A DNA stretch of 64,000 bases from Acorus gramineus (taxonomy: Eukaryota; Streptophyta; Magnoliopsida; Acorales; Acoraceae): assembly GCA_030737835.1 (NCBI GenBank), contig CM060853.1, forward strand, positions 1,368,941 through 1,432,940. Reading direction: 5' to 3'. The notes beneath the pieces are model-generated. The model worked only from the letters and a program-made list of their open reading frames with translations, was not told where the DNA came from and did no database searches. Below, piece after piece: positions 15,417-60,477 of the stretch (the first letter of the stretch is position 1; the number at the start of each line of letters is the position of its first letter). Made by a program: the position numbers and the translations under genes.

Positions 15417-15472
15417 GGTGGCTACTTGAAAGTAGCCGTCTCTCCTCTGACGGCTCATTTTAAGTAGCTGTC
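15417..15472. repeat. 32 bp-period palindrome array, 2 units
   Basis: Units 15417-15440 and 15449-15472. Each is 8 bp arm, 8 nt loop, 8 bp arm; the linker is 8 nt. Left arms GGTGGCTA and GACGGCTC; right arms TAGCCGTC and TAGCTGTC; loops CTTGAAAG and ATTTTAAG. Confidence 0.9.
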
Positions 15473-16670
15473 GGAAACCTGTGTGCAGAAGTGCAGAAAT
15501 TAAGGGGTTTGATAGAACTGTCGAATATGTTTGATTATTTTCTTGGGGGGGCAAGTCATGCACGTGTTTTCCCCTATAAATACCCAACTTTGGATGCCCT
15601 AGGACCTAATTTGAAAACCTAAATCGAGTCCTCTCTCTCTCTTGTTTTATCAAACCCTAAAAGAGGTCATTTGGGTGATTTTTGAAAGAAAATCCTTTGA
15701 GGATTAAGGTGGGTCCCTCTACTTTGTTTTTTTTATGATAATTAATATTTTTAATTGTTGTTAATCTCCAATGATGGGTTCATCCCGAGGTGATTCGGAT
15801 TCACATGGTTTTATGGGTTTTCCTTCTTTTTAATTTCAAGGTTTCTATGTGATATTGATTTATTTTGGATCTTGATGTTATGTTAATCCATTGATGACGT
15901 TTTTAAGATATTTTTACAAGATTACACACTGTTTTGGAATATTTATACATAGATCGTGGTTAGGGTTATTATTTTTAAGATAGAAAGCATGTTTAGGGTT
16001 TCTAATGCCTTGTTTTGGGTACCACCTTGCATGAACCCAAATCTCATGTGTTTTCATCACTGTTTTGATGAGTTTTATCATAGATCCATGTTATTTATTT
16101 GTATACATATTAGATCGGTGGTTTTCAAGATTTTTCGGATGGATTATGTAAGCTTTTGATGCACAATTCATGGCTTTGCATGGATCTAGGGTTAGGAAGA
16201 CATGATCTTTATATTGGATTTATTTATATCATAGATCCTGCTATCGTTATGATGTTTTCTGGTTTACATATTCAGACTTCATGATTTATGATTCGAGTTT
16301 TGTTGATTAAATCGATATTTGAATAGAAATCATGTCTGGCTCTACACAAACTCCACATGCATGATAGAAACATGTCTTAGGACACTTTATCATCATTTAA
16401 TCTACTATTATATAATATGGTAATACTACTTTGAGGTATGAAAGTATATGGTGTTAATATCACCATTTTTCAAATTGTTCTATAGAGATTTCATCATTTT
16501 TTGATATTTTGATTTGTCATAGAATCGATCATTTAGGGGATCAAACCTAAATGTTTTCAACGTGTTTTTATTTGTATTTCTTTATGAGAGAGAGTAGGTA
16601 CGGGTTTTTGGATGTTTGGGTGGGAAGTCGGGGTCATTAAGGGCATATTTGCTATTTTGGGTCTGTCGGG

Positions 16671-16758
16671 GGTGGCTACTTGAAAGTAGCAGTCAGAGAC
16701 CAGGCGGCTAGGTTTGAGTAGCCGTCGGAAGCCTGGTGGCTAAATTTGAGTAGCCGAC
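16671..16758. repeat. 32 bp-period palindrome array, 3 units
   Basis: Units start at 16671, 16703 and 16735, exactly 32 bp apart. Left arms GGTGGCTA, GGCGGCTA, GGTGGCTA; right arms TAGCAGTC, TAGCCGTC, TAGCCGAC; loops CTTGAAAG, GGTTTGAG, AATTTGAG. Confidence 0.92.
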
Positions 16759-17871
16759 TGAGTCTAGTCTTTTCGGTGATGTCTGATTTTATTTAATCAT
16801 TATGTTTCGTTTCTGATCTGGTTCATTGGTATGAATACCCTCTGGAGCAGTAAACTCTTGTTAGCTTTCTTGTTAGTCCGGTAGTCTTGCGTAGGACCGG
16901 AGGTGAGTGGATGTCTCTATCTATTTTGAAACCATAATATATGTGTACTTGTTGGCATCGTGAGTATTTCTTAAATTGAAATCTTTTTGGTATGAGGCAT
17001 ATGAGCATGTTATTACCATATAAGCTGATATATTATTAAGTATCATACACATTGAAATTATTAGATTTGAAACCGTTGCATGCTCATTAACTTGAAGATA
17101 AAGATAAGTGGTTTGATCATATGCATCATATCGCCTAGGTGGCTCAGTCTAGGTGACTGCGGTTCAAAATTGACCCAAGTCTAGGTGACTACGTCTAGGT
17201 GACAAGATTCCCAAAGCGAAATCCTTGCGGCTAGGTGCCGTGGGTGACGGGCATGCGTGTCCGTTGCATTCATATACATCATATGGTTTGAGAAGAGTTT
17301 CTTTGAAATTGTGCATCTTTCAAAAGAGATTTATATTAAGCTATTGTATCTTTGGGATAGCGTTTTAAGACTTATTATTTATGCAATTGTTTCCATTACA
17401 TCTTTATTAAACTCTTTATTTTGAAGCATATTATATTATTTGGACACCAATGTCCATTCACTGAGCGTGTGGTAGCTCACCCCTCTTTTCCCAACCTTTC
17501 AGGTTTAAAGACTTAGATTGGTGGATCTCGTGTAGCTGCGAACGAGATCGTGAGTGCGAGAACGTTAGACTTGCTTGGTCAAAGGACTTAATCAATTTTG
17601 TTGGCATGTAGTCAGCCCATCTCCCTAGTAACTATGATTATGGCAAGTTGTATATCTTTATGTATAAGTTATATCCAGTCACATTGGGAGTATTGTTGAA
17701 ATCTTAGATGTTTTGGTATCTTTGAAGAATGAAATTTATTTTAGTATTATTTATTATATCTCTGGATAAAAGAAAAAAATATAGAACTATGAGATTTGAG
17801 GAAATTAGTTAACGCAACCGGATCTCACGCTTCAAAAGGGAGTCGTGGATTTGGGGGCGTCATAGAGTGGT

Positions 17872-18647
17872 TGTAACACCCCAGGCTTACACAGCAAGAA
17901 ATTGACCACTTTGCCCCTAAATGAGCTCACGGCTTTAAAACGTGTCTTGGTGTGTAAGAGTTGTGCTCACATATAAGCATAGACTATCTCATCCCATTAG
18001 GTGATGTGGGACTAAACACCCTCACCCTCACTCAATCCATAGGCCTCTTGGGACTATTGGGCCTGAGCCATGCGCCACAATCATCCCCCCTAATAGGCCA
18101 CACGTCCTCGTGTGGGACCACCGACATACACCATCGCGTAATGGACAGACTCTAATACCAATTATAACGCCCCAGGCTTACACAGTAAGAAATTGTCTGT
18201 TTTGTCTCTAAATAGGCTCACGGGTTTAAAACGCGTCTTGGTGTATAAGAGCTGTGCTCACACATAAGCACATATTATCTCCTCCCATTAGGCCATGTGG
18301 GACTAAACACCCTCACCCAATCCATGGGCCTCTTGGGACTCTTGGGCTTGGGCTAGGCGTCACAATCACCCCCCTAATAGGCCACATGTCCTCGTATAGG
18401 GTTAGCCACACCCACAATCACGTAGTAGACAGGCTCTGATACCAATTGTAACGCCTCAGGCTTACACAGCAAGAAATTATCCACTTTGCTCCTAAATGAG
18501 CTCACGGTTTTAAAACGCATCTTGGTGTGTAAGAGTTGTGCTCACATATAAGCACAGACTATCTCCTCCTATTAGACAATGTGAGCTAAACACTCTCACC
18601 TAATCCATAGGCCTCTTAGGACTGTTGGGCCTGGGCCAGGTGTCACA
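17872..18647 (-). mobile_element. Tandem TRIM-like array: LTR-int-LTR-int-LTR
   Basis: Three LTR copies on the minus strand (17872-18079, 18163-18364, 18447-18647; 201-208 bp) are separated by two internal regions of 82-83 bp. Read on the minus strand, each internal region begins with a primer site (ATTGGTATYAGAG) and ends with a polypurine tract (the plus strand shows CCCCCCTAATAGG) before the next LTR TGTGRC. It is the same family as 13469-13866 but in opposite orientation. The tandem form is typical of unequal recombination between LTRs. Confidence 0.8.
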
Positions 18648-18853
18648 TATACCCAGTTTTTTATAGCCTCCAAAGTAGTCCGCTCATTTTTTAAAACAAT
18701 TATATACTTTATCTATTGAAAAATGAACTTTTATCTAAAGTTGAAGTATATAGTCTAATAAATTGAATGATATCGTTTATTTTATAATATTATATCATAT
18801 ATATATATAATATTATATTATACATATATTTTTATTTTATAATATTATATATA

Positions 18854-18906
<53 letters not shown>

Positions 18907-25632: not shown

Positions 25633-25641
25633 CTGTTTTTT

Positions 25642-25817: not shown

Positions 25818-28800
25818 TGTCACGCCCCAGGGCGGCCAACCCCGGGACGCGGCAAATGTATATATATCATATCAGAAACCTACACAGGAGGTCAAATGCA
25901 TGTACTCTAAACCACAAATAAAATGACAACACATATCAAACAGGGCTGACATAATATATACACAATATTGCGGAAGCAAAAGACTGAATCTGTGAATAAA
26001 CATTCTACAGACTCGATACTCAATCATACGTCCTGTGAGAGCCAATATACACAAATATACAACTGAACATAGACCAACACGTGCCAAGCACGGAAATAAA
26101 ATACATACAGCCAAGGAAAGGGATGCTGATAGCCTCTGGTACTCGCGGACGTAACGCTGCTCCGCTACTGAAGAGATCCCTCGGAAAGCTCCAACTGCTG
26201 CTCCGGCTCCAGCTCAGGCTCAGTGGCAACTGGGGAAAAACATATGCGAGGGGTGAGCCACACGCTCAGTGAATGGCACAACCCATGCATCACAGACAAT
26301 ATTGACCACAACATATTAATCCAGCCATTCATCCCGCCTCAAAGGGGCAGGAACAACATAACCATTTATCCAATCCAGATCATACCCTCACCCTTACCCC
26401 TCAACAGGGGACTCAGGATTTTGGGACTAACTATCATCAATAAACAAGACCAGCGGGTCGCTTATCGCCTACCCACTACACCCTCACCCTCACCTTTCCA
26501 AAGGTGACATAGGATTTTGGGACTGATAAACATTCATAAACAAAACCAGTGGGTCGCTCATCGACAACCCACTACACCCTCACCCTCACCCTACCACGGG
26601 TGACATAGGATTTTGGGACTGACTAGGCTGTTGGTCACCCTTGGTCCACCGATAGTCTCTCCTCACTCCGCGGTTGTTTGGCCACTCCCATGTTCAGCAC
26701 AGTCCTTCATCAAACCAGGAGGCGCCTACTAGTGGGAGCCCCTGCACGGGACAACCTGTCTAACGCCGAGGTAGTCTCTAAAGGATCCAACGCAGGGCAA
26801 CAGAACAGCCTATCCATCGCATATGATCCACTCGGATCCGCCGACAACGCATCTCTCCAACTCAAATGTCATGAACTCTTCAGAGTTCCTCCAGCGCGCA
26901 TAACCAAGATGCGGGGAAACAGTACAATCAAAAGCAGTGTTGGAATACCACTGGGGGAAAGAAACTCGGGAGGGCGGCGTGAGTTCCCGATACAGGGTAC
27001 CCCGACAACCAAACAAGGAACACGGAGTACCCTAACACGGGTCTCACCGCTGTCCTCGCAAGGTCCCTCCCCTATAATATTCACTACTCATGCTAATAAT
27101 CATACCAAACATACAACTCTAACGTTCTGAATTCCTCAGAACCCACCAGGGCGCATAACTACGATGCGGGGAACATGCATAAGGTTATATCATAGTGAAA
27201 TATTCTTGGGGGAAAGCAACTCGGGAGGGCAGCGTGAGTTCCCGTTATAGGACGCTCCGACAACCAAACAAGGAACACGGTGTACCCTAACCCGGGTCTC
27301 ACCGCTGTCCTCGCAAGGCCCCTCCCCTAAAATAATCACTATAACATGCAATTCAACAGATACTAGTATTTAATTTAATAAATAAAACTAGTAGGACACA
27401 TGCATAGGCCGGGTTTCCTAGCATGTAAACAGGGGACATGCTGCAAGGCTCATATGCATATCCTAAGGGGCAAGTCCCTAACATGCAAAGACTAGGGAAG
27501 CATGCATTCTACACATAAATTATACAATCATGGATACATATTATTGCAGGTTAATATTCATCCAAGACGCCCCAGGAGAGGTCGGTATACGCCCAAGTGC
27601 GTATAACACCTCTCGACTGGGTTGGATTGTCCCACTCACCAGTATCGGGGTCGTCGCGCGACCGTCCGTCTAGATCTGTAAGACAGACATTCAGTATGGT
27701 GAGTTAAAATCCATAATTACCCAAAAATACATAACATACACAATTAAACACCCAAAATCCCAAATTAATCACCCAACACCCCCCGGCAACCACCCGCACG
27801 GCCCCCCGACCGCCCGGGTGCACCGCCGCGCTTCAGCCCGCGCACTCCGCGCACCGCCCGGGGCTCCGCGCGTCCACCGAGCTCAGCCGCGGCAGCCCGC
27901 ACGCGCCCCGCACGCCGTGCGCTGGCCCGCGAGCACCCCGCACGCCCCCGCGCACACCGCCTCGCGCCTTGCCGCGCCCCGCGCACGCCTCCCCGCCCCG
28001 CGCGCACCCCGCGCGCACCTCCGCCACCTCCTCCGCGCGCACCCCGCGCGTGCAGCACCTCCGGCAGCACCTCCGCGCGCACCTCGCGCGTGCAGCACCT
28101 CCGGCAGCACCTCCGCGCGCACCTCGCGCGACCTGCTCCACGCGCACCAGCCGCCCAGCTCGCCCAGCACCGGCCTCTGCTCGCCCAGCACCGGCCTCTG
28201 CTCGCCCAGCACCGGCCAGCACCTCCGCGCGCGCCCAGACCAGCGCCCAGACCAGCCCCTCGCGCCGGACCCGCGCGACCAGCTCCTCGCGCCCGCTGCC
28301 CGCTGCCTGAGGCCCCAGCACGCCTGCACGACCAGCAGCCCGCACCAGACCCGCGCACGCCCGCGCGCACGCCGCGCGCACGCACGCTCGCGCGCGCACG
28401 CGCGCCTGCCCGCGCGCACCCGACCTGCGCGCCGCCTGGGCTGCTGCTGCTGCTGCTTGGCCCGGACGACCTGCCACTGCCCGAGCGCCTCCAACCACCT
28501 CTCCCACTGCCGCCGACCACCTCCAACCACCTCCGACCACCCCGACCGCCCTCCGACGACCCCCACAGCCTCCGACCACCCCCAAACACAAAAACCCCTC
28601 CCTAGCATTCATCTAAGCAAGAAAAAGGAGGGAAAGAAGGCTTACCGAGGGGAGGGAGCGAAGTCCGGACGCTCTCCACGCGCCGAAACCCTTCCCAAAA
28701 GCCTTCTCACGCCCCGATCTAGCTTACCCTCAATGGGCCAAATCAGAGGAGAAAAGGGGAGGTCGGGGAGGCTAAAGTCGTCGGAATTCGGATTTGAAGA

Positions 28801-29215
28801 CACCGGTGTGTAGATCGGGACCCGATCTACACTTCCCGTGCTTTGGGTTTTCGATTTCGAGGGGTCTAGGGGGCTTGAACGGAAGAAAAACGGAGAGGGG
28901 AGAGAGAAATCTCGACGAGGAGACGATGAACAGTGCTTGATTTGCTCTTTATAGTGCGCGACTTAAAAACCCGGATACGCCCCGGAACTGGAAAATTTTT
29001 GCAAACGATGCCAGAATTCATGAAATTTTCGTGGGAGGTCAGAAATGGCACCAGGACACCAAATATGCAGTCAGATTTCCAATCGGAGTCCTCTAGCTCA
29101 GACGATAGCTAACAGTCTGAAATTATGCGGTTCCGACCAAAAACCCTAAAAATTTTAAAAACCGCCAGGGCGCTCTAACGGTTACCAACAGGTTAAAAGT
29201 GACACATATATAACA
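25818..29215 (-). repeat. 3' LTR of the young gypsy element
   Basis: On the minus strand it starts TGTTATATATGTGTCAC (29215) and ends GGGGCGTGACA (25818). It contains candidate intron 1 (27676-28645), the mini-exon (27640-27675) and candidate intron 2 (26230-27639). Inside intron 2 are about three tandem copies of a roughly 90 bp unit with CACCCTCACCCT (26380-26620) and two copies of a roughly 250 bp unit (AACTCGGGAGGGCRGCGTGAG, about 26955 and 27210). Confidence 0.93.
27676..28645 (-). other. Candidate LTR leader intron 1 with CpG-rich core
   Basis: Minus-strand donor CCCCTCG|GTAAGCC at 28645 and acceptor GTCTTACAG|ATCTAGACGG at 27676 (970 bp). The core 27780-28600 is extremely CpG-rich, with short tandem repeats: a roughly 36 bp unit with CAGCACCTCCGGCAGCACC (28050-28130) and a 21 bp unit CTCGCCCAGCACCGGCCTCTG written once per repeat at about 28157-28220. 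The solo LTR at 36085 lacks exactly this segment. Confidence 0.65.
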
Positions 29216-29408: not shown

Positions 29409-29499
29409 AATCTACTGCTCCACGAATGACTGTCCGGTTCAGAGACGAACGGCTCGAACGGGATGACGTGAGCAGGATCGCGGACACACCCTTACCCAC

Positions 29500-29830: not shown

Positions 29831-29839
29831 CTTTCATCT

Positions 29840-35300: not shown

Positions 35301-35771
35301 GAGGTCGGGGAGGCTAAAGTCGTCGGAATTCGGATTTGAAGACACCGGTGTGTAGATCGGGACCCGATCTACACTTCCCGTGCTTTGGGTTTTCGATTTC
35401 GAGGGGTCTAGGGGGCTTGAAAGGAAGAAAAACGGAGAGGGGAGAGAGAGATCTCGACGAGGAAGACGATGAACAGTGCTCCTCGAAATTAGCTCACCCC
35501 AATTTATAGTGCGCGACTTAAAAACCCGGATACGCCCCGGAACTGCGAAATTTTTGCAAACGATGCCAGAATTCGATGAAATTTTCGTGGGAGGTCAGAA
35601 ATGGCACCAGGACACCAAATATGCAGTTAGATTTTCAATCGGAGTCCTCTAGCTCAGACGATAGCTAACAGTCTGAAATTATGCGGTTCCGACCAAAAAC
35701 CCTAAAAATTTTAAAAACCGCCAGGGCGCTCTAACGGTTACCAACAGGTTAAAAGTGACACATATATAACA
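32379..35771 (-). repeat. 5' LTR of the young gypsy element
   Basis: Near-identical to 25818-29215. The differences seen are a few small indels, for example in the Q/CTG repeat near 34975-34995 and one roughly 10 bp change near 35075. Candidate intron 1 is 34209-35183, mini-exon 34173-34208, candidate intron 2 32763-34172. It drives transcription of the minus-strand gag. Confidence 0.93.
34209..35183 (-). other. Candidate LTR leader intron 1, second LTR copy
   Basis: Same splice sites as 27676-28645 (GTAAGCC...TTACAG), 975 bp. The CpG-rich core (34300-35130) is open in several frames only because it lacks A and T. Confidence 0.65.
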
Positions 35772-36043: not shown

Positions 36044-36084
36044 AATGGTATCAAAGAAATGTTGAATTTATTTGTGTGAGATAG

Positions 36085-38369: not shown

Positions 38370-38376
38370 GATAGTT

Positions 38377-41322: not shown

Positions 41323-41329
41323 ATTTTTA

Positions 41330-42770: not shown

Positions 42771-43199
42771 TCAAATTTCCCCTGCGGCCTCAACCCCAGC
42801 ACCCATGGCCTCTTCGGCCTCGAGCCCAACACCCACAGCCCCCGCGGCCTCAGTCCCTACACCCTCGCCTTCCTCCGCACCCACCACCCCGAAGGCCAAA
42901 GCCTCAAAGTCCCCCAAAGCCCTCCTCTCCTCCTCCTCAGCCCTGGCCTCTCTGGCCTCCCTCTCTAACATCCCTAGGATGGCATCCAAAGACGCCCTCT
43001 CCTCTACACTAACCCCCTCTACCCCCTCAACCGCGCCTTCGGCCGATCCTCCGGCCTCCAAAACCACACCTTCGGCAACCGCCGATTGACCCCCACGCCT
43101 TCGCTTGCGTGTATACCCTATGAACCCCGCCCCTCCTCCCATAACATCCCCTGAGGATGCACCCGCACCTCCACCCACACCCACCAACAGCATTTTCAC
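42771..43199 (-). pseudogene. Antisense extra gene of Tat element, N-terminal fragment (copy A)
   Basis: Open minus-strand stretch homologous to 58147-58533: TRKRRRGGQSAVAEG, then a low-complexity E/G/A region with LDAILGMLEREAREARAEEE. It is part of a second Tat element copy whose sequence continues on the other side of the solo LTR at 46847. It breaks off at about 42750. Confidence 0.7.
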
Positions 43200-43209
43200 C
43201 GTTTGGGTC

Positions 43210-46200: not shown

Positions 46201-46846
46201 TGAAAAACAGGGGGGGAAGACATGAGAGGGAGCTTGAGAGAGGAGAAACCACAACAACAACAACACATACACAAAACACACCTTTTTTGTGCTTCCTTCT
46301 TCACCTTCTCCTTCATTTGCTTCTTCCTCCTTCTTCTCCACACACAAAGAAGGGAAAAAGAGACCAAGAGAGGGAGAGAAAGAGAGATCCACGAATTGGG
46401 AGAGAGGGGGAGAGAGAGAGAGGGCAAAAAGGTCATTTTCATGCCAAAATAGTGTCTAGGGGTGACCATAAGGGGGTGGTGAGGTTAGGGTTAGGCTCAC
46501 CCTCACTCAACCACACATTTTTGCTTTATTGGGAAGCGTGAGGAGAAGCACCACACACTCAAAAATATCTCACCCACCAAAACCCTGTAACGGCCAAACC
46601 CGGATGCGATTCGGAACTGCATATTTTTTAAAACGTTACCAGAATTTGATGAAATTTTTATGGGTAGTACAAAACGGTACCAGGACCCATAATATGTAGT
46701 TAGATTTTCAATCAAAGTACTCTAACTCTCGCAGGTGTTTAAAAGCTAAAATTTTAGCGACTCTGATCGAAAAAGAAAAAGGCCCTGAATGACCCAGATG
46801 TGACCAAGGCTTAACCGTAATGGCTCCAAATGACACAGGCATAACA
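43210..46846 (-). mobile_element. gypsy solo LTR, 3637 bp, intron retained
   Basis: Flanked by GGGTC on both sides (43205-43209 and 46847-46851). On the minus strand it starts TGTTATGCCTGTGTCATT (46846) and ends GTGTGATA, mutated from GTGACA. It is closest to the LTRs of the 1343-8370 element. Candidate intron 1 is 45576-46086, mini-exon 45539-45575 (37 nt), candidate intron 2 43599-45538. The CACCCTCACCCT runs (43760-43780; 43983-44000) and CpG-rich stretch (45650-45990) are in the usual places. Confidence 0.9.
45576..46086 (-). other. Candidate LTR leader intron 1 in solo LTR
   Basis: Minus-strand donor CCCTTG|GTGACC (46086) and acceptor TTACCTTGCAG|ATCTCG (45576), 511 bp. The ACTCACCATTCTGATG block precedes the acceptor as in the other copies. 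Confidence 0.55.
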
Positions 46847-47804
46847 GGGTCGCCTCCTCCGCGACCCTCCTCTCTGCACTATCGCTCTCCGACAAGCTCG
46901 ACCCCGAGACAGCCCCCCTCTGTTCTCTTCCCCTTCGTCATCTCCTCCGATTTTGCGAAAAAGAAAACCCCAAAGGAAACTAGGGCTTTGAAATCAAGAA
47001 GAAAGGAATGATCTAGGGTGAATCAAAGTCAAGAAAAACCAAGTTTTTTGGTTTCAAACGAAGAAGAAGAAGTGTTGGAGGGAGAAGAACCGTTTTTTAA
47101 AACGTTTTGGAGAGAGAGGGTCCTTTTCAGTTATAAGGGACCCAGTCGGCTGGCGGCTACTCGCGAGTAACTGCCCCCTATCCGACTGCTAAACACAACT
47201 AGCAGCCCCTCCCTATCGGCTAAACACCACTAGTCGCCCCCAGCCAGCTTCCCAAATACACTTATTTTCTAAGTTTTCTCAAACAAACAGCCATGTATTG
47301 GTTTATTTCCAAGTTTGACTTGATCCAACACAACTTTCTCAAAGTTTTACAACAATTACCAGTACCATTCAGTTCAAATTTCTTCAGTTCTGGTTCTTTT
47401 CCAGAATCTTTGTCTTTCGAATGATCCAATTCACCAAATCAAACACACTTTTTCCTTCTTTCTATCTGTGATATCCCATTGATTTGCTGAGCTACCCAAG
47501 CATGGGTACGGTAAGCACAAGGAAACTGATGCCGGGCTGCTCCGTGCACGATGGCTAAGAACCCCGTCCGAGGGTTGGATCACTTGCTTCCTTACTTTTA
47601 CTCACTCTCCCACCTGAATCACTACTTAGATAACCATTCTAGTCAAAACCCAGCCTCTGATGACCTAAATTACCTCCTTGAATGGTATTGGTCATGTGTC
47701 CTAAACCTCTTGAAGGTTGGGCCGGCCAAAATAAGGGTCTCTTTTCTTATCATCAATCGAAGTCTTTCTGTTTCACACAAAGACTCCGTCCAATGAGGGA
47801 CAAT
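46847..47804 (+). mobile_element. Tat element interior, 3' end (copy A)
   Basis: Right-hand continuation of 42750-43209 after the solo LTR. Colinear with 58620-59665: CCCCTTCGTCATCTC, ATAAGGGACCCAGTCGG, CAGCCATGTATTGGTTTATT and a GATGAGGGACAAT polypurine tract before the LTR at 47805. On the minus strand the gene start ATGACGAAGGGGAAG is at about 46955, but the frame then diverges. Confidence 0.75.
47152..47238. repeat. 32 bp-period palindrome array, 3 units
   Basis: Units start at 47152, 47184 and 47215. Left arms GGCGGCTA, GACTGCTA, ATCGGCTA; loops CTCGCGAG, AACACAAC, AACACCAC; right arms TAACTGCC, TAGCAGCC, TAGTCGCC. The same place in copy B is 59012. Confidence 0.85.
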
Positions 47805-47961
47805 TGTAGATACCTTAATTTTGACCGTCCAAAGAAAAGAAATTTACTTCAAGTAATATTAGAAAACAACCACACTTGGACATCTAATAGAAAACTCCCT
47901 CAGAAACCGAAACCGGAAACCCTAAGTCCAACACTTAGAAAAATCTAAGAGCCTGGACAGG

Positions 47962-48065
47962 GGCGGCTAGTTCCAACTAGCCGCCCCCCTGACCAACCCC
48001 AAACCGCCTTCCTAGATGGAACATAAAGCAACCATGATAGCGGCGGATAGTCCTTTCTAGCCACC
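47962..48065. repeat. 24 bp palindromes, 2 single units
   Basis: 47962-47985: GGCGGCTA, loop GTTCCAAC, TAGCCGCC (perfect). 48042-48065: GGCGGATA, loop GTCCTTTC, TAGCCACC. Confidence 0.9.
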
Positions 48066-48145
48066 CCATCTTAGCCGGTTTCTCCTTAGTAACCGACCCA
48101 AGCCACCGCTTGTCAGAGATGGGACATTTGACAGGTTTTGATGGG

Positions 48146-48201
48146 GGCTGCTACTTGAGAGTAGCCGCCCCTCACCGGGCGGCTAAACACAACTAGCCGC
48201 C
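48146..48201. repeat. 32 bp-period palindrome array, 2 units
   Basis: Units start at 48146 and 48178: GGCTGCTA, loop CTTGAGAG, TAGCCGCC; and GGCGGCTA, loop AACACAAC, TAGCCGCC. The 8 nt linker is CCTCACCG. Confidence 0.92.
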
Positions 48202-48564
48202 CCTCACCTGGACATTGTCAGAGAACAAAGATCTAATGGGAGGTCAAATCAAGCACCTTATTATCCATTTTGATCTATTGTCCAGTGAACACTCCCCTAC
48301 ACCCCTTTTATTATAAATAGGGGGGTCTCTAAGCATTTATACACAATCAATACCCATCAATAACCCCAACAACCCACATTCCCAATCATCAAGCCTATAC
48401 CACCACTTTAAAACCTTGAGAGAGAAAGTGAGAGAGAAACCCATTTCCTACACAAATCCATTCTCCAAATCCACTCTCCAAAACCTAGGTTAAACCCGGT
48501 TTAACCTCTGGCAAAACCAAACCCAAACCCTACCCAGGTTTTGTCCAAATTGAACCAGACACCA

Positions 48565-48620
48565 GGCGGCTACCCACAACTAGCCGCCCCCCACCAGGCG
48601 GCTAAATCTAACTAGCCGGC
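48565..48620. repeat. 32 bp-period palindrome array, 2 units
   Basis: Units start at 48565 and 48597: GGCGGCTA, loop CCCACAAC, TAGCCGCC; and GGCGGCTA, loop AATCTAAC, TAGCCGGC. The 8 nt linker is CCCCACCA. Confidence 0.92.
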
Positions 48621-49031
48621 CCTTCCCTAGCTCACCTCAAGTCCCAAATCTCCTCTAGTCAGTTTCCCAAAGCAGAAAAGGATCCCTGTCTTCACCTCTG
48701 TGCACGGCACATCCGTGTCCCAGAGCGATGACCACACAAACTCCCCACGAAGGCGATCAAATCCACCCCTTTTTCCTGCTTTTTGAGAAAAGAAGGTGAC
48801 GATCACAACAACCCCTGAATCCTCCTGAGAACACGTCGGATGCCTCAGCCAGGAACGAACAACCAACCCATCACCCCCTTCAGAGAGACGATCCGACCGA
48901 GTCTGCCAAGGCGCAGCTCTCCGGACCCAAGCCTCCAAAGAAACCCCCACACACGCACAAACCACCAGATGACCGAGGAGGAAGGAAGAGAGGGCCCCTT
49001 TCTTTCCTTTTCCCGAAATCCGATACCGACA

Positions 49032-50154
49032 CCAGGGAGTTATGATTACAACCATTGAAAGCGATAGCAAAAGGATCATTTTGAGTCAATAGGGTAGTCG
49101 CCTAGTGTTTTCAGTTAGAAAGCGAGACGACCAACCGAACGAAGGTGAGAGCGTAGGAGACATCTCTAATTTTCCCCTGGAGCTTCCTAACTTTCTCAAC
49201 AAAGACTGCCTCACTCGAAAGCTCTTACCCTCGTTTCTCCCCATTTCTAAATGTACATCAAAGTAGCATTCAAAGATCCAACATTTCAGGTCCAGGACAG
49301 TTAGAAAAAAATTTCAAAGCCAAAAGTGAAGAAGAAGGTGACCAAAGGTCTGAAAACCAGTCTAAAGCTTCTATCGCAGATTCAGGTCTTCCCCATCTCG
49401 ATCCTACACCCGTCTCTTCATGGAAGCACCGGGCACGGCTGGGTTTGTTACGAGTTTTTTTTTATATTATTCCATTCCAACTCCTTCCGATACCTATTAT
49501 TCATATCTTCTTCTCCCTAAATATGTTATCTTCTTCCCAAATCTACAAGGTCTCACAAAATTACATATTTTGCCCCACGGTCATCTATTAGAAAAAGGTA
49601 TATCCAACGGAAAGAATCCAAGTTTCCAACTTTCTGTCAATTTCAGTAGTCTGTGTTAAGGAACTTAGGCAATAATGAGTCAGTCTAGTATTCCGTATTG
49701 TGATTTTAGTATTACAGCAATAACAAATGATATTCTCGGAGTGAATACTCCTCCGTGTTGAGGTTTTCCTTGGGGATAGAAATCACAACAGATGAAGATG
49801 AAGGAGAATTCACTCCTTCTACCTCTCCAGATAATATAATCACGTCTGGAGTGTGATTCGAACCCCGAAATTTGATCTGAACCCAGAATCTCATTCGGAG
49901 GATGACGGGACCTTGAGTTTGGCGCATTAAACTACTCACCCATTGTGCGAATCAAAACCCGGGATTCGATTCGAACCCAGACTCTCATCTGGAGGATTGA
50001 TTTTAGCGCCCTAAACTAGCCTCCCATCATTGCAATGCTATCCCTTCATTCAGCCGGTGCACTCCACCACCCAAGCCTTGAAGCATTCCGGGAAGGTCAT
50101 TTGCGGCCTTGGATTGTTTGAACTGGCCATCGGTGCCCTAAAGCATAATGCTTT
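49032..50154. other. Tat interior before protease; possible SINE-like piece
   Basis: No gag could be recognised. Around 49740-50020 the minus strand shows tRNA-promoter-like motifs (GGTTCGAATC twice, near 49850 and 49960, and an A-box-like TGGGTGAGTAGTTTAATGCG near 49945). That might be a decayed tRNA-derived SINE; support is weak. A 9-10 T run lies at about 49456. Confidence 0.4.
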
Positions 50155-50952
50155 GTGGCCCACATTGACACAAGATACCCGCTGATGTTAGGACGACCAT
50201 GGCTGGACATCATCCAAGCCATCTGCTCCCCGAGGCACCAATGCCTTCGCCTACCATTCATGGGCCACATGCTAACCATATGGGGAGAGGCACGCCTTAG
50301 GTATGAGAACGAAGATAACTGGGTGTTGCATAACATGTTTACCCCAACCTTGCACCCAGGTATCCAATCAAGAGGACACAGCCCACCTGGATCTCTCTAC
50401 AACAACCACCACCCCTCAGAAGAAACGGTCGAGACCATGAACTTGGTGAACAACCGTGTAGAGCCCAATCAGATTGCCTTCCTCCCCCATGAGGTCGCCA
50501 AAGTCGGGGCATGCTCCGCACCCCTCACAATCACCACGGACCTCGGAGGAAGAGTGTTCAAGCACATCCTCATCGACACGGGAGAGGAAACAAACGTACT
50601 AACCCATTCCGCCTACCAAAAGCTTAAGGGTAAAGTCCCCAAGTTGGAGCCATCGGACGAGTTCATTTATGCATTTGACAGCTAGCGCAAGGACATCTGT
50701 GGACTGGTCACTCTCCCACTCAAGATCGGCCCGGTAGCCATGATCATCAACTACATGGTGATGGACATCCGATCACCTCACCCCCTTATCGTCGGAAGGA
50801 CGTGGCTCAACAGAATCGAAGCTGTCTTGTCTACTAGACACCAATGCCTCCGCTTCCCGTACCACGGAGATGTCATATCTATTTGGGGAGAGGCGCGCTT
50901 TAACGGAGCACGAGTCTGCAACTGGACCATCTGCGCCATGCACATTAAGTGA
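50155..50952 (+). pseudogene. Tat protease with duplicated C-terminal segment
   Basis: The central part is an aspartic protease of the Tat type: HILIDTGEETNVLTHSAYQKL (50567-50630), where DTG is the active-site triad, followed by a TAG at 50683, then GLVTLPLKIGPVAMIINYMV and MDIRSPHPLIVGRTWLNRIE. The last segment (50755-50950: VGR-WL, STRHQCLRFP, ISIWGEARF) also occurs before the active site (50155-50310: LGRPWLDIIQ, SPRHQCLRLP, LTIWGEARL). So the protease end is present twice. Confidence 0.75.
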
Positions 50953-51159
50953 GAGATGTACTCATACAACATGATAAACTACTCACCCAAAGACGTGCTC
51001 GGTCAAGGGCAAAAACCCAAGAGGGCAAGGGAAGAAGAAGAAGCTGAACCTGCAAAACCTCCACCAGATATGAGTTGGCCTATAAAGGCTAGCCAACTCG
51101 AAGAAGTGGTTCAGATCCACGAGCCTGGGACTGATCCACCCAAGTAAGCTTTACGCTTT

Positions 51160-51800
51160 CAAAGTCCTCTACATATTTGTTTACATGCTTTCCTAAAATA
51201 AAAATAAAAAACAAAACAAAAAGATTTGCTAAACAGCTTTCATTCCAAACTCTTGTACATATTTGTTTACATGCTTTTCCCAAAAAAAAAAAGGCAAAAA
51301 GATTTGCTCAACAGCTTTCATTCCAAACTCCTGTACATATTTGTTTACATGCTTTTCCAAAACAAAAAAAAACAACAAAAAGACTTTCTAAATAGCTTTC
51401 ATTCCAAACTCCTGTACATATTTATTTACATGCTTTCCCAAAACAAAACAAAAAACAAAAGATTTGCTAAACAGCTTTCATTCCAAACTCCTATACATAT
51501 TTGTTTACATGCTTTCCCAAAACAAAAAAAAAAAACAAATAAGTTTTGCTAAACAGCTTTCATTCCAAACTCCTGTACATATTTGTTTACATGTTTTCCC
51601 AAAAAAAAAACAAAAACAACAAAAAGATTTGCTAAACAGCTTTCATTCCAAACTCCTATACATATTCGTTTCCATGCTTCCTTAAACAAAGAAAAAATCA
51701 AAAAGATTTATTTATCAGCTCATGCTCTCAAACTCATATACATATTTGTTTACATGCTTACAAACAAAAGGGACAAAAACAAAAGATTTGTTCATTCCTA
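51160..51800 (+). repeat. Minisatellite, about 80 bp unit, 7-8 copies
   Basis: Unit: TTTGCTAAACAGCTTTCATT, CCAAACTCCTGTACATATTT, GTTTACATGCTTTCCCAAAA, then an A-rich linker. The AACAGCTTTC anchor recurs at about 51233, 51312, 51391, 51470, 51554 and 51635, with diverged copies at both edges. Differences are mostly in A-run length. It lies where RT to the integrase core should be. Confidence 0.9.
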
Positions 51801-51837
51801 GCTTCCTTGCATGCTTTCTTAAAACAACAAAAAAAAA

Positions 51838-52135
51838 CTGCAGACCATGCCCAGGCCTACCAGAGGAGGGTGGCAAGAGCATTTGAAAAGAAAGTAATAG
51901 AGAGAAAATTTAAAGTTGGGGAGATGGTACTTAAGCAAATTATGCCATCAAGATAGCTAAGCAAATTATGCCATCAAGATAGCCCCACCCAAAAGGCAAG
52001 CTGCAACTCAGATGGGAGGGACCCTATGTGATCACCCATGCCTACTCCGGGAATGCCTACAGCTTGGTGGATGCCGAAGGAGTCGAAGTCCAAGGTTCGT
52101 GGAATGCACTTTATCTAAAGAAATTTCATGCATAA
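51838..52135 (+). pseudogene. Tat integrase C-terminal end
   Basis: Reads ADHAQAYQRRVARAFEKKV, then RKFKVGEMVLK, LQLRWEGPYVITHAYSGNAY and WNALYLKKFHA, the usual end of Tat pol. A 27 bp tandem duplication (AAGCAAATTATGCCATCAAG..., about 51934-51986) brings in stops. Confidence 0.8.
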
Positions 52136-53713: not shown

Positions 53714-53860
53714 GGCGGCTACTGAAAACAAACCGCCGGCTACTTGGCGGCTGCTCTCCACATGCCGGCCCAACCCCTATTCCAAGTTAAGTCCATCATT
53801 CAGGGGTAGCTAAAATAGACTAGCCGCCTGACCCTAGGTGGCTATTTTGAACATGCCACC
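53714..53860. repeat. Two 32 bp-period palindrome pairs
   Basis: Units start at 53714/53746 and 53805/53837. Left arms GGCGGCTA, GGCGGCTG, GGTAGCTA, GGTGGCTA; loops CTGAAAAC, CTCTCCAC, AAATAGAC, TTTTGAAC; right arms AAACCGCC, ATGCCGGC, TAGCCGCC, ATGCCACC. Some right arms have TA changed to AT. Confidence 0.85.
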
Positions 53861-54549
53861 CCTCACCTGCTGCCTCACCTATTTCTGTCAGTCCAGCTTA
53901 ATCAACTCTTCAACTTTCTCAAGGCCTGTCAAAATTTAATTTCCAAAACCTGTACATATACCTTCCATACATCCATACTAACTCTTACACATTCATCCAT
54001 TCGCATACCCAACCATTCGCCACACATACACTTATATATACACTCACCAAATTATATCCAAAAGACTTTTCAAAGCCAAAACATCCTTGTCTCTACACGT
54101 TCATTCATCTACTCACATACCAAATCCATATAAACCATTCCACACATACACCCACTAGTTCAAATCAATCAATAGACCTTCAAATTGATAAAAACAACTA
54201 AAAACAACCATGTCTGTCTATAAACTGAAGGAGAGATATAAATTGTTCATAAAAACCGAAAGATAAAACTAAAATTTAACCAAAACAAAAGGAGTTCATG
54301 AACCAAACTGAAAACTAAACTAAGGTAGAAATAGTGTTTGCTGGAGTCCAAAGTCTTGAGAAGCACTTAATCGGAAGGTCACCTGAGCCAAAATAAAAGA
54401 AGAAAGCATGAATTCATTGCCATACATACAATTCTTCTACCAAAACCAAGACAAAGAATATACCTTGGCATGTCATCATCCGCGGGAGGCTGGGTCGAAG
54501 GAGGAGCATCCTGGCCTGGCTGAGAAGGCAGCGGTGGCTGAGGAGAGGA
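53861..54549. other. Non-coding stretch downstream of the antisense gene
   Basis: C/A-rich, no coding signal. Should contain the 3' untranslated region of the minus-strand gene ending at 54550. Confidence 0.45.
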
Positions 54550-56955
54550 CTAAACCTCTGGAGCGTCCGGAGCAGCAGGAGTCTCTCGAACCGAAGAAGT
54601 AGCCCTAGCATACCTCCCACGACTTTGAGTAGCCGAAGGACGAGAAGCTCTACTGAAGGTGGCCTCGGTAGCAAAGGAGGTCGAGATGGAGTGCTCGTAA
54701 TCAAAAGGGAGAAGGTCGAGGTCTGCCTCGGTCATGGCCCCTCCACCAACCAACTTCCCCCTCATGGTGGCCTCCCAGAGGTGGACCTGCTGGATGTCTC
54801 TGTCTCTCCTCTCCAACCTCTGGCGAAGGCGTGCCTCCACCCCTCTCGATCGATCCTCGACCGCCCTCAGCCTATCCTCGAGCTCCCGTGCCCTCACCTC
54901 TGTGGCCCGGAGCCTCTCCTCGCTCAATCGAAGCGCGTCTCGGTCCCTATCCTCGGCCGCCTTAAGGGAGCGGATCAGATCTCCCATCAAACCTCCAGGA
55001 ACACCCGCCGATGCCTCCAACTTCACCACCCTCACCTGGAGGGAGTCTCGCTCACAGCACAGGATGGCGAACTCCTCCTCTCTCGATGCCATCTCGGACC
55101 TCAGCCGGTCCATCTCCTCCTCAACCATGGTGGCCATCCCCCTCACCTAATCAAGCTCCATCCTCGTGGCCATCAACTCGCTCCGGGCCATGTCTAGCTC
55201 CCTCGCCAACTCGAGCTCTCGCTCGGAATCCATGGATGGAGGAGGAGCAGAAGAGGAAGAAGCGCCGTTGGCCCTCGCCCTCGCCAACACCTCCACCTGA
55301 ACCTTGAGGACCCGCACCTGATCCTGCAAGCGACGCCTCTAGATCCTCAAGCGTTCCACTTGACCGGTCCTCTTCTAGAGATGTTGGTTGGCGGTTTCTA
55401 ACTTCTTCTCTTACTCATTCATTTCAAACAACACAAAAACATATATATATTAAATATATATTAAAAACACTTAAAAGGAGAAGAAAGGGAAAAGAAAAGG
55501 AAAGGTCAGAAAATATACTCACATAAGAGTCTGAGATTTCCTCCTCCATGGTCCCAAGGATGCCTGCACACTCCTGACGATACCAAGCCAGGTAGTCTTT
55601 GTTTGACGTCACGTCAAGGCGGCGCTCAACCAAAGTCCCCCTCTCGACCCACCCCCACAAGTACATAGCGTAGTTCCTCAAAAGGTCCGTATCCCGAGGA
55701 ATGCCGGCCACTGGAATCGAAGGACACTTTGGTGGAGGGGCTGGCACCCACTGGTAATACCCAAGCTGAAGAACCACCAGGCTGATCGTATGAAAGACCA
55801 CCTCATTAAAAAAGATTAGCCAGATGTCTGGCGAAGCTCCTCGTGGACTGCCTCCTCCGTGTAGGGCCTCCAAGTCATCTACAAGTCAAGATACAATAGA
55901 CATAAGAAGAGAGCTTAGTCAAATGAAAATCCTATAAGGGCTGAAATTCAAGAAATTATACCTCTTCTTCCTTTAAAGTGAGGAAGGCCTCTCGAAACTG
56001 GGCGAGGCGACACAAGCGAGAATACCCCGGGGGCGCCCATCTCATGGCCCAAGGAAGGGCGCGGTCGAAGACCATCTGGGTCGGACGAGCGATGGCAAAA
56101 TTCTCATACCCTAAAATCTGCGGAAGGAACATCAAATTCAAATCAGGTGAAGTAGATAAACATCAAAGAAATATCATTTCTATCTTTTATTGACCCGTAC
56201 ATGCAAAAACGTCGCAAAACCGCCAAGGTTCTTGCCCCCGGCCCTCTTCACCTTCTTCGACAACTCTACGAAGAGGTGAGCAAGCATGGCCGCACCCCAA
56301 GCAAAGCGGCCCATCGTCTCCAAGTTCTCCATCAAAAGCAAGAAATGGGAGGAAACCTTGTCGGAGGCTGTCAAGAAGAGGACCCTATCAAAGAAATAGA
56401 GGAAGAACACCCTCAACTCCTTCCGCGCCCTTTGTGGGCATGCAACAGCCTCTCTGGCCTCGATCATCAGCCTCCTCCGCTCATAGCTAGCCATGGCCTC
56501 ACCTTTCTAACGACGCGTAAATGAACCAAGGCCATACTGCCCCAACAGCCGTCCAAGAGGGATCCGGTTCAACGTGCTCTCTTGCTCCACGAACTCCCAT
56601 TCACCGATCAGCTCCCAAAAAAGCGACTTGTAGTCGGGACTAGTGGCCGCTATCACCGCCTCGCCCAAGGTTGGGAGGCTCGTGATTCGCTTAACATCCT
56701 CGAGCCTCGGCATCACTATACCAGTGGGGAGGATGAATGTACAGCTCTTTGGATCCCACCGCTCCGCCAACGCCTCTAGATAAGGGCGATGAACATGGAA
56801 GGGCTCGATCAAGAAGAAGGAGCGGAAGCCCGCTCCGTCCACCAGATCCCTCTCCCCCTGCCCCAAGGCGGAGTACCACCTCTTTGTCCCATGCTAGAGG
56901 GCCCGAATGCGATTCGGCCGCTGAAAAACAACAAAGAAAAGGGGTTAGTCTCTTA

Positions 56956-57436
56956 GCCCCCGTTTGGATCGAGGAATAAGCTATTCTGAGGTTTATACCT
57001 ATTCCAGGAACAGATAATTTTATCAATAGAATAAGTGATTTTCTGTTTGGTTGTGTTTTTTTTTATTCTTATTGGAAAACGTAAGAATAAAGATTGAGTT
57101 GTTTAGTTGATGAAAAATAAAATGTGAATAAAGTGTAAAAAGTTAATTTGATATGTGGGCCATATTGATGTATAGGAGGTGTTGATAGATGATTTGATGT
57201 GATGAGATGTGATTTTTTTTATGTGAGGGTGAACCCCACTTATCCATGGGAATAGATAAACTGATTATAGCTTATCCTAGCGGTTACTTAGAATTGTTAT
57301 ACTATCTTATATTCATTTATACTGGAATAGTAATACCAAGTTATACTCTGTAAACAAACAGCCGTTTTCCATATCCATTCTTATACCACCCTTATACCCC
57401 CATTATTCCACTTTAACCCCCCATCCAAACGGGGGG
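56956..57436. mobile_element. Tourist-like MITE in intron of the antisense gene
   Basis: 481 bp, flanked by TTA on both sides (56953-56955 and 57437-57439). Terminal inverted repeats GCCCCCGTTTGGATC and CATCCAAACGGGGGG. AT-rich, no coding. The TTA duplication and the CCCGTTTGGAT end fit PIF/Harbinger-derived Tourist elements. Confidence 0.85.
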
Positions 57437-57439
57437 TTA

Positions 57440-58146
57440 GGATAGCATTCAAGAGGTAAGAATTCTAAATCCAACAGAAATTCATTCTAAACAATGCTTA
57501 GTAGGAATTCTTACATACAAAATCAAGTAAAAGCATGAAATATATAAACCCTTAAAAGGACACTCCCCCCTTTTATCATGAAACTTTCCCTTATGATCAC
57601 ATACTTTACCCTCTTATCCCACCATAGTTATCACTATCACATGCTTACGTGCTTTCTTTCATCACTGTCTATCATACTTATATACCTTTCATGAACTCAC
57701 CCAAACTTACTAAAGAAATTGTCCCTCCCCTAACTCATGCCATACCCACGCTCACATGATCCCACCATGAAAAGACCCTATAGACTCATGAATACATGTA
57801 TAAATTGTCCTCTCTTACTCCCCACCATGATAAAAAAAATTATCCCCTACATACAAATCCCACCATAATATAACATGCAAGCATACTATGTTGTTCTACA
57901 AAATCTTCTATACTTACGTTCCTTTTTTTTTTACCATGCCTCTGTCATAATAGAAATATATGCATATGAGAATTGTCCTTCCTTTAAAAACCCACATATC
58001 ATACTCACATGCATGCAAATTCCACCATGATCAATTTGTACAAATACCCTTTTTTAGAAAATCTAAAAACAAACATACTACTTCTACTCATGCCATATAA
58101 AAATTACTAACATATGTCCATAAAAACACACATAATTTAACATGAT
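57440..58146. other. Rest of the first intron of the antisense gene
   Basis: C/A/T-rich low-complexity sequence with many CATGAT and CCACCATGA motifs. No other feature. Confidence 0.4.
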
Positions 58147-59011
58147 CTAAAAGATTAGACAAAGGGAAATTGAGACAAATACCGTGGCTCGTGTGGACCC
58201 AGGAGCATCTGCCTTAGCCTCGTCGGGATCATCCATCCCGTCGTCGTCTCCCTCCTCCTCTACAGCCCCAACATGGACACCCTCGGCCTCCGCGGCCTTG
58301 GCCCCAACACCCTCACCCGCTCCTGCGCCCACCGCACAGGAGGCCAACGCCTCAAAATCCCCCAAAACCCTTCTCTCCTCCTCCACAGCCCTGGCCTCTG
58401 TGGCCTCCCTATCCAGCATGCCCACGATGGCATCCAAGGAATCCCTCACCTCCTCACTAACTCCCTCAGCCCCCACCCCCTCAACTACACCCTCGGCTGA
58501 CCTTCCGGCCTCCAAACCAACACCCTCGGCCACCGCCGACCGATCACTGCGCCTCCTCTTGCGTGATATCCTATCATACTACTCACCGCCCCCGAGACAG
58601 CCCCCGAAGGCGTGCCCCCGACTGCACCCGCGCCCATCAATGGCGTCTCCGCCGTTTGGTTCATCTCCCACGCAACCCACCTTTCCGACCCATCGCTCTC
58701 CGATGAGCCCGACCCCGAGACAGCCCCCCTCTGCTCTCGGGAAGACCTGAGACGCTTCATCATCGAAGCCGTCTTCTTCCCCTTCGTCATCTCTTCCGAT
58801 TTCACAAGAAAAAGGAGAACCCAAAGGTTCTTAGGGTTTTGAAATCAAGAAGAATGAGATAATCTAGGGCAAAATCAAGGAATTTAAGGTGAAGAAAACA
58901 AAGTTTTTCCTGTTTATAATGGAGAAGAAGAAGAAGGTAGGGAAGAGAAACCGTTTTGAAAATGTGATGAGAGAGAGGGTCTCTTTTCTGTTATAAGGGA
59001 CCCAGTCGGGT

Positions 59012-59099
59012 GGCGGCTACTCGCGTCTAGCCACCCCCCATCCGCCGGGTAAGATCAACATGCCTCCCCCTTCTGGCCGGCTCAATTACAATATCCGCC
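59012..59099. repeat. 32 bp-period palindrome array, 3 units
   Basis: Units start at 59012, 59044 and 59076. Left arms GGCGGCTA, GCCGGGTA, GCCGGCTC; loops CTCGCGTC, AGATCAAC, AATTACAA; right arms TAGCCACC, ATGCCTCC, TATCCGCC. It matches the place of 47152-47238, with independent arm changes. Confidence 0.82.
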
Positions 59100-59878
59100 C
59101 AATGCCTTCTTTCAAAAATACATTCATTTCAAAGTTTTCCAAACCAAACAGCCATGTATTGGTTTATTTCCAAAATCCTACTTGATTAAACATGACTCTC
59201 TTGAAGTTTTATCACATTTCCAGTATCGTTCAGTTCAAATTTCTTCAGTTCTGGTTCTTTTCCAGAATTTTCTATCTTTTGGATGATCCAATTCACCAAT
59301 TCAAACACTTTTTACTTGCTTTATGTCAGCGATATCCCCTTGGTTCGCTGAGTTACCCAAGCACGGGTACGGTAGGCACAAGAAAACTGATGCCAGGCTG
59401 CTCCGTGCATGATGGTTAAGAACCTTGTCCGAGGGTTGGGTCACTCGCTATTTTACTTTTTCCCATCTTCCACCTGGATCGTCCTTTCGATTGAAAATTC
59501 TAGTCAAGACCTAGCCTCTGACAGTCTAAATCAACTCCTTGGATAGTATTGGTCACGTTACCTAAACTTCTTGAAGGTCGGGCCGGCCAAAATAGGGGTC
59601 TCTTTCCTTATCATCGATCGAAGTCTTTCTGCTTCGCACAAAGACTCCATCCGATGAGGGACAATTATAGATATCCCAATTTTGACCATCCAAAGAGACG
59701 AAAAATACTTCAAGTAACATTTAGAAATGACCACATTTGGAAACCATAAAGAAAACTACCTTAGAAACCAAAACCGGAAACCCTAGTCCAACACTTAGAA
59801 GTTTCTAAAACCTAGACAGGGGCGGCTCCTTGGACGGTCAAAATGGGACATAAAGCAACATTTAATGCTGATGATTGC

Positions 59879-60038
59879 GGCGGTTTGTTCCCTTTAGACG
59901 CCCCATCTTGGCCAGTTCAAACCTAGTAGCCGACCCAAGCCACCACTTGTTAGAGATGGGACATTTGGCAAGTCATCATAGGGGCGGCTAAACCAATCTA
60001 GCCGCCCCTCACTGGGCGGCTAGTTTCAACTAGCCGCC
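59879..60038. repeat. 24 bp palindromes: single unit plus 32 bp-period pair
   Basis: 59879-59902 is diverged (GGCGGTTT, loop GTTCCCTT, TAGACGCC). The pair starts at 59983 and 60015: GGCGGCTA, loops AACCAATC and GTTTCAAC, TAGCCGCC, both with perfect arms. The 8 nt linker is CCTCACTG. A deleted unit remains as GGCGGCTC at 59821. Confidence 0.92.
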
Positions 60039-60421
60039 CCCCTCCTGGACCTTATCTGAAGAACAAAGATCTAATGGGGGTCAAATCAAAACATCTTATT
60101 ATCCATTTTGATCTATTGTCCACTGGATATTCCCCTGCCTCTTTTTTACTATAAATAGAGGGGGCCCAAAACATTTCTAACATATCCAATAATCCCCCAA
60201 TTCAAATCAACGCATACATTTCATTCCCAAGTCATACTCACAAGCCCATACCCCCTCCCCTTACTTGAAACCCTAGAGAGAAAGAGAGAGAGAAGACCCA
60301 TTTCCAAGCCCAATCTACTCTCCAAAAACCCTCTCCAAAACCCAAGTTAAACCTAGCTTAACCACTGCCAAACCCTAACCCATTTCCTACCCAGGTTCTG
60401 CCCAAATATAACCAGACACCA

Positions 60422-60477
60422 GGCGACTAACCCTAACTAGCCGCCCCCTTTTAGGCAGGTAATTCCCACTAGCCGAC
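60422..60477. repeat. 32 bp-period palindrome array, 2 units
   Basis: Units start at 60422 and 60454: GGCGACTA, loop ACCCTAAC, TAGCCGCC; and GGCAGGTA, loop ATTCCCAC, TAGCCGAC. Same place as 48565-48620 in the other LTR. Confidence 0.9.

Follow-up and report, generated by a model that had tools for sequence, protein, structure and literature searches.

A palindromic module of fixed spacing at the promoters of two retrotransposon families of Acorus gramineus, a candidate protein-binding site

What keeps a short palindrome at one fixed spacing in retrotransposons whose other sequences vary? The question is raised by a 64,000-nt stretch of the Acorus gramineus genome (assembly GCA_030737835.1, CM060853.1, positions 1,368,941–1,432,940, forward strand; hereafter the window, with positions counted from its first nucleotide), in which a module composed of a left arm (F; GGCGGCTA), eight variable nucleotides (the loop) and a right arm (R; TAGCCGCC) is repeated many times within long terminal repeat (LTR) retrotransposons. 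A previous sequence-only reading of the window had listed about 26 such units and proposed three options: a protein-binding palindrome, an RNA hairpin or a parasitic module jumping between retroelements. The first of these fits our results best. With a probability of about 60%, the module serves retrotransposon promoters as a site for protein binding, homotypic and largely independent of orientation; its binding and activating role we infer from sequence features.

A search of the window with a tolerance of at most three mismatches gave 22 module matches, compared with 0.08 expected from shuffled sequence, and all 22 were among the 26 listed before. The remaining four (15449, 53746, 53837 and 59044; 4, 4, 4 and 5 mismatches, respectively) are in register, which confirms the whole list (26/26); two weak in-register units overlooked in it (48074 and 59911, five mismatches each) lie 32 bp from known units, and the 26 listed and two weak units are spread over three element copies. 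With up to two mismatches per arm, an arm-to-arm offset of 16 occurs 23 times in the window (0.45 in shuffles), an R-to-F offset of 16 occurs 11 times and an F-to-F offset of 32 occurs 13 times; the offsets of 16 between arms and 32 between units far exceed the shuffles or any other offset. The loop is partly constrained, with C or G as its final base in 26/28 and A as its penultimate base in 24/28 window units.

The same geometry was found in a genome-wide search of this one assembly (398.6 Mb) with perfect arms, which identified 1606 units with a loop of 8 nt and no match for a reversed control. Perfect-arm pairs with loops of 0–7 nt number 18 and those with loops of 9–38 nt together 111; a different 43-nt repeat accounts for 26 of the 50 places listed from the latter. 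This repeat (e.g., C2:2185092-2185134) shares the outer arms (GGCGGCTAGGCG..GGCCA..CGCCTAGCCGCC) and does not resemble the module. Perfect neighbouring units separated by linkers of 0–30 nt occur 802 times, with a linker of exactly 8 nt in 45 of the 50 places listed. For closer inspection we used twenty 10-kb loci (L001–L020), one of them read without 2646 of its bases, surrounding the first listed perfect-unit places; these are selected by perfect units and come from contig 1 alone. Allowing one mismatch per arm, the loop is 8 nt long in all 82 arm pairs at offsets 8–46, and the linker is 8 nt long in 30 of the 35 R-to-F pairs at offsets 8–36. Loop length is therefore rigid and not broadly spread, and the 32-bp unit spacing with an 8-nt linker, described earlier for the window, is borne out in both samples.

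Most of the sampled units belong to one diverse LTR family. Together with ten shorter loci (L021–L030), the window and L001–L020 give 208 sampled units, 202 of which fall in homologues of this main family; such homologues are present in 20/20 of loci L001–L020 (some partial) and an LTR match, in some cases short, was found in 8/10 of L021–L030, L025 and L030 being without any. The LTRs have the ends TGTAGATACC...CCGACA, and target duplications of 5 bp flank them in L003 and L005, which are near-identical (AGTAT), in L001 (GAGGG) and in L007 (AGACT); in the other copies examined no duplication was recognised or the flank was cut short. Two window copies, A and B, have 2 kb in common at 76% identity, and their 3' LTR boundaries were taken from other copies and blastn. 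Internal sequence with a polypurine-tract-like end precedes both LTRs, which are therefore the 3' LTRs of two different insertions; on this ground, and because other copies show the true ends, we rejected both the possibility that they are the two LTRs of one element and that of a primer-binding site at the LTR end. The features of copies A and B, including units in the U3 (unique 3') and the R/U5 (repeat and unique 5') parts of the LTRs, are as follows:

47131..47136, minus strand: TTATAA, probable TATA box of the copy A antisense gene
47152..47238, plus strand: three units upstream of the copy A antisense gene, internal region, outside the LTR
47805..49031, plus strand: 3' LTR of copy A, TGTAGATACC...CCGACA; ends from other copies, three with target-site duplications, and blastn
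47962..47985, plus strand: perfect unit in U3, copy A
48042..48097, plus strand: two units (48042, weak 48074) in U3, copy A
48146..48201, plus strand: two units in U3, copy A, 110 bp above TATAAATA at 48312
48312..48319, plus strand: TATAAATA of the copy A LTR
48565..48620, plus strand: two units in R/U5, copy A, downstream of the TATA box
53714..53860, plus strand: four units (53714, 53746, 53805, 53837), internal region
54412..58790, minus strand: antisense gene, encoding a plant mobile domain (PF10536, within piece 56510-56893; ATG 58790; left end approximate)
58991..58996, minus strand: TTATAA, probable TATA box of the copy B antisense gene; nearest unit 15 bp away
59012..59099, plus strand: units at 59012, 59044 (weak) and 59076, upstream of the copy B antisense gene
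59666..about 60872, plus strand: 3' LTR of copy B (blastn and other copies)
59879..59934, plus strand: two units (59879, weak 59911) in U3, copy B
59983..60038, plus strand: two perfect units in U3, copy B, 111 bp above TATAAATA at 60150
60150..60157, plus strand: TATAAATA of the copy B LTR
60422..60477, plus strand: two units in R/U5, copy B, downstream of the TATA box

The units had previously been assigned to LTRs and element interior; the geometry is present at each of those places, and the clusters at 47152-47238 and 59012-59099 are not part of the LTRs.

Protease-like and RVT_1 pieces (not RVT_2) follow one main-family LTR in sense order (L004, continued in L044), with PF00078 at E 1.3e-9 in L044 and PF13975 at E 7e-6 in L004, just under the curated cut-off, and a gag piece (PF03732, E 2.3e-6) was found in L006. 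The family is therefore Ty3/gypsy. No Pfam match was obtained for the window sense pieces 49157-49588 and 50149-50682. A Tat/Ogre-like affiliation is likely, judging from the antisense gene and from reverse transcriptase residues that we take to be typical of Tat. The antisense gene encodes a plant mobile domain (PF10536, E 2.5e-9) and runs leftwards from the ATG at 58790; its first residues recur in 7/8 copies examined by two search words, 3/7 of which have a stop within the first 25 codons.

Several observations concern the interior of these copies. The copy A antisense gene (42774-46950, minus strand) is interrupted, seemingly split by an insertion between ~43209 and 46926. Two adjoining protease-like segments (LMLGRPWLD.. 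and LIVGRTWLN..) were recognised by eye at 50149-50949 (plus strand), the first without a Pfam match, and a tandem array of ~80-bp units, with self-matches at offsets near 80, occupies 51157-51838 of the internal region. No long reverse transcriptase frame was seen in the interior of the window copy, which so appears non-autonomous.

Is the module under selection? In an alignment of 17 main-family LTRs, from which four near-identical rows and three partial copies had been dropped, mean pairwise identity is 0.847 in arms, 0.723 in loops and 0.759 in the background; the excess of arms over background (P 1e-4) and over loops (P 5e-5) is stated with optimistic P values, as the aligned LTRs are mutually related and kinship was ignored. 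Not one of 73 anchored loops changes in length, compared with 743/6530 background stretches (P 2.6e-4), while loop substitutions amount to 0.17 per site vs 0.105 in the background; linker length changes are likewise absent (0/25). Between the LTRs of copies A and B, differences affect 12/96 arm sites, 25/48 loop sites and 255/984 background sites. For the main family, and for it only, the proposal of a selected structure is thus upheld: the arms are kept better than background and loops, and loop length is fixed while loop sequence is free. Independent arms (see below), fixed spacing and free loop sequence together suggest that a protein reads the module as double-stranded DNA.

A neutral origin, by slippage in one ancestral LTR and persistence through descent and unit exchange, has to be weighed against this. 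It agrees with the concentration of the sampled units in homologues of one family and with the coming and going of whole units: gaps of exactly 32 nt were found five times, always in contact with the arrays, and more unit losses are visible in the LTR alignment. Since whole units are gained and lost, neighbouring units must recombine, and arm identity could rise through such exchange even in the absence of selection. The constancy of loop length, however, is independent of unit exchange. A neutral repeat also fits poorly with main-family loops of constant length amid background that varies in length, with arms that resist change despite their CpG content, and with clusters that persist close to several distinct promoter-like sites as well as in another family. 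We consider it quite unlikely.

The second family is represented in the window by a single LTR with two clusters:

15181..17867, plus strand: second-family LTR, beginning TGTAACGG after a G-rich tract; 3' end approximate, by eye
15417..15472, plus strand: two units (15417, 15449) in U3, ~100 bp above the TATA box; aligned in 12 loci including the window copy
15575..15582, plus strand: TATAAATA of the second-family LTR, kept in 11/12 aligned loci (GATAAATA in L040)
16671..16758, plus strand: three units (16671, 16703, 16735), below the TATA box

When matched against the genome, the first 480 bp of this LTR gave 40 scored places (from 364 candidates). The pair ~100 bp above TATAAATA is preserved in the 12 second-family loci, the window's included; the triplet further down is whole in nine, partly lost in L038 and L041, and L036 is unaligned there. 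At 1680-1767 of L036 a second-family LTR carries an extra tandem U3 unit, apparently a unit gain. The claim that one geometry occurs in both this LTR and the Tat elements stands insofar as the module is present in both; the gypsy lineage of the 15181-17867 LTR is putative. The five reading-frame pieces tested, of 11 in L043, gave no Pfam match, and the label 'Tekay-like' is therefore not claimed for the second family.

Apart from one 95-bp fragment (see below), the two families match across the double unit only, over 67-81 bp at 71-76% identity (E down to ~5e-8), including a near-identical loop (CTTGAAAG vs CTTGAGAG). This likeness would fit a mobile or traded module, in which template switching or gene conversion carried the unit pair from one retroelement to an unrelated one and the pair spreads as such. 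Two families alone were found, though; only two of the 208 sampled units, both in L010, are outside both families, and no insertion ends or target duplications were noticed round units, although these were not searched for systematically. An actively spreading module is accordingly improbable; a second family that shares little but the module allows one or a few transfers and does not speak for ongoing mobility. The two weak L010 units (3 and 2 mismatches), which by score belong to neither family, have 66-71% identity to the second family across the unit itself. The same locus contains a 95-bp second-family fragment (2852-2945, 83%) without units, near a broken main-family LTR; this fragment, located outside the LTR pieces of L010, corresponds to the part of the second family that precedes its units. 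It may be the remnant of a nested element, and other exchange or nesting between the two families is possible.

The arms of a palindrome might equally act in RNA, as stem-loops serving packaging, dimerisation or stability of the element transcript, or as a source of small RNAs for silencing, a role that has been suggested for the Sirevirus palindromes of maize. Of the five clusters tested, four fold better than any shuffle (z -5.4, -4.2, -7.1 and -3.4), the fifth (53.7 kb, a shortened stretch) having z -0.9; all clusters would fall in full-length sense RNA, and maize Sirevirus palindromes attract small RNAs (PMC10760457). The paired arms themselves show no excess of covariation and vary independently, in the manner of two half-sites: among 175 distinct units, compensated arm pairs number 14 vs 10.3 expected (P 0.14) and broken pairs 181 vs 183.7, and the 28 window units likewise show no excess of compensated pairs (4 vs 2.3, P 0.18-0.20). 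The compensatory changes envisaged for paired arms are thus not in excess in either set. Columns 9 and 16, just inside the arms, are complementary more often than in shuffled sets (70 vs 50.5) in the 175 distinct units, whereas no such excess appears in the 28 window units (8 vs 6.5); the excess may reflect two ancestral unit types. An RNA hairpin, moreover, does not need a fixed 8-nt loop, and small-RNA production may be a by-product of any palindrome. The hairpin is for these reasons weakened, and we regard it as unlikely.

The reading of the module as a protein-binding site is consistent with its placement near promoters. TATAWA is located 107-113 bp below the last U3 unit in 16/22 U3 clusters and 126 bp below it in one, against a chance expectation of 0.063 for the 80-125 bp range; this count leaves out a fragment cut by the end of L019, and its rows are kin by descent and include near-identical pairs. 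TATAWA was unmatched below the remaining five (L009, L010, L011, L012 and L017). At the antisense gene, TTATAA is kept in 9/10 covering copies (two near-identical pairs among them; L008 lacks it), and the units begin 15 bp above it in both copy A and copy B. The internal cluster at 53.7 kb recurs in L006, L013 and L014, where TATAWA is found 133, 139 and 100 bp below, respectively; in the window copy there is none within 160 bp below, so that the promoter link of this cluster is weak. The layout of the second family is similar, with its pair ~100 bp above TATAAATA and its triplet beyond.

We propose the following model: (i) each unit would consist of two inverted half-sites (TAGCCGCC) exactly 16 bp apart; (ii) two or three in-register units would form an enhancer-like cluster; and (iii) since clusters lie above the LTR TATA box, which would yield the element RNA, and also above the TATA-like box of the antisense gene, a single regulator might drive the two promoters.

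A number of results weigh against this proposal. The half-site on the right extends further than that on the left (A occupies the third loop position in 0.89 vs 0.67), making the symmetry imperfect, and in L042 of the second family the loop of the first U3 unit is 7 nt long. Units were detected via their arms and are exchangeable among neighbours, by which arm identity is possibly inflated. In the 160 bp below the R/U5 clusters there is no TATAWA. Moreover, the contrast between kept arms and varying loops, noted in the earlier reading, holds in the 17 main-family LTRs but was not evident elsewhere: (i) in the antisense-promoter units of copies A and B, 15/48 arm and 9/24 loop sites differ, without clear contrast; (ii) in the upper pair of the second family, identity is 0.934 in arms, 0.933 in loops and 0.925 in the background, so arms are not better kept; and (iii) in its triplet the values are 0.876, 0.975 and 0.893, respectively. 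The second-family test has less power because the copies are more alike.

Which protein could read the module? The half-site TAGCCGCC contains AGCCGCC, the GCC-box, and because of this a host AP2/ERF (or DREB-like) factor is our first candidate, proposed tentatively and at somewhat less than even odds. Some units carry AGCCGAC in place of AGCCGCC, and the core of the dehydration-responsive element (DRE) is similar to it. To our knowledge, GCC-boxes of the host do not form strict 16-bp inverted arrays. A soybean ERF bound a GCC-box gel-shift probe containing TAGCCGCC beside two other GCC-like sites (PMC10459988). The statement in the sequence-only reading that no named motif matches must be withdrawn, given the GCC-box in the half-site and the palindromic CGG-CCG repeats published for Sirevirus LTRs. 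We made no use of the seventh half-site position as a GCC/DRE signature (CCGNC); it is the most variable one (31/170), but mainly via one unit. TAGCCGCC is also the core of the yeast URS1 site; we know of no URS1-type factor in plants.

A regulator encoded by the element itself is highly improbable. Here the antisense plant-mobile-domain protein (or a partner) would bind the module and drive its own promoter together with the LTR, in a feedback circuit like that of a retroviral transactivator or an anti-silencing factor, and the second family would borrow this regulator; five tested reading-frame pieces of the sampled internal region of the second family have no known domain. The 'DOWN' motif of the plant mobile domain (PMD) literature was rejected as a counterpart of the module, as the form CATGCAGTTT given in the available part of PMC9899485 (motif described in PMC7156037) does not match, and the exact double unit gave no match in viral contigs.

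Other repeats and elements were observed beside these families. The window contains a 3.4-kb direct repeat (25818-29215 and 32379-35771; 97% identity), of which 36081-38371 is a diverged relative in inverted orientation, and a direct repeat (1355-2355 and 5761-6745; 94.6%) round retroelement-like frames, probably a separate LTR element. Adjacent to sampled LTRs lie a FAR1-domain piece (L001 3140-3808, plus strand) and a copia-type RVT_2 piece (L044 7626-8810, minus strand).

Among known systems, the BI and BII boxes of the Tnt1 LTR are tandem and palindromic U3 promoter repeats that respond to stress, although they belong to Ty1/copia and differ in sequence and unit. The likeness to GCC-box/DRE sites of AP2/ERF factors lies in the AGCCGCC held by the half-site. 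Regarding the antisense gene, Grande, RIRE2 and Retand carry an extra antisense gene between pol and the 3' LTR, and that of Grande has its own promoter according to the title of a reference cited there (PMC11963269); a plant mobile domain is present in 57% of Ogre elements, with orientation not stated in the available part of the source (PMC6317226). The main family resembles Grande, RIRE2 and Retand in having such a gene, and no palindromic module is described at their promoters in the parts of these sources available to us.

The closest counterparts are the repeated motif (RM) boxes of Sireviruses (Ty1/copia; Bousios et al. 2010, PMC2829016), which are palindromic with a CGG-CCG core in 12/13 tabled elements and present in 8 to 32 copies per element. 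They occur above the TATA box within the LTR and also ahead of ENV, with stress-related factors suggested; RM is called Sirevirus-specific there, being absent from the classic retrotransposons compared. The present module shares the CGG-CCG palindrome, the many copies, the position above the LTR TATA box and the copies upstream of an extra gene, and the arms of Sorghum RM (AGGGCGGCAGTGCCGCCCT) and Inga RM (AGCGGTASTACCGCT) given there are close to its own. In contrast, (i) its host is Ty3/gypsy; (ii) it has an 8-bp variable spacer, mostly 8-bp linkers and units also in R/U5; (iii) the extra gene is antisense and encodes a plant mobile domain, not ENV; and (iv) unlike the CpG islands of Sirevirus RM, arrays A and B show no CpG enrichment (observed/expected 0.57, compared with 0.77 for the window).

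No description of such modules in Ty3/gypsy LTRs was found in the open-licence literature searched, mostly by title, and a text search for the arm letters returned no retrotransposon paper recognised by title among the matches listed. The module thus appears as a fixed-spacer counterpart of RM in Ty3/gypsy, placed at both the sense LTR promoter and that of an antisense accessory gene and common to a second family, which suggests convergence on one operator type, or its exchange, among unrelated retrotransposons of plants. It offers a concrete motif and spacing for asking which factor awakens these elements, and whether the antisense proteins regulate them. In kind and placement the modules of A. 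gramineus match Sirevirus RM, and they differ from it in superfamily, spacer, associated gene and CpG content.

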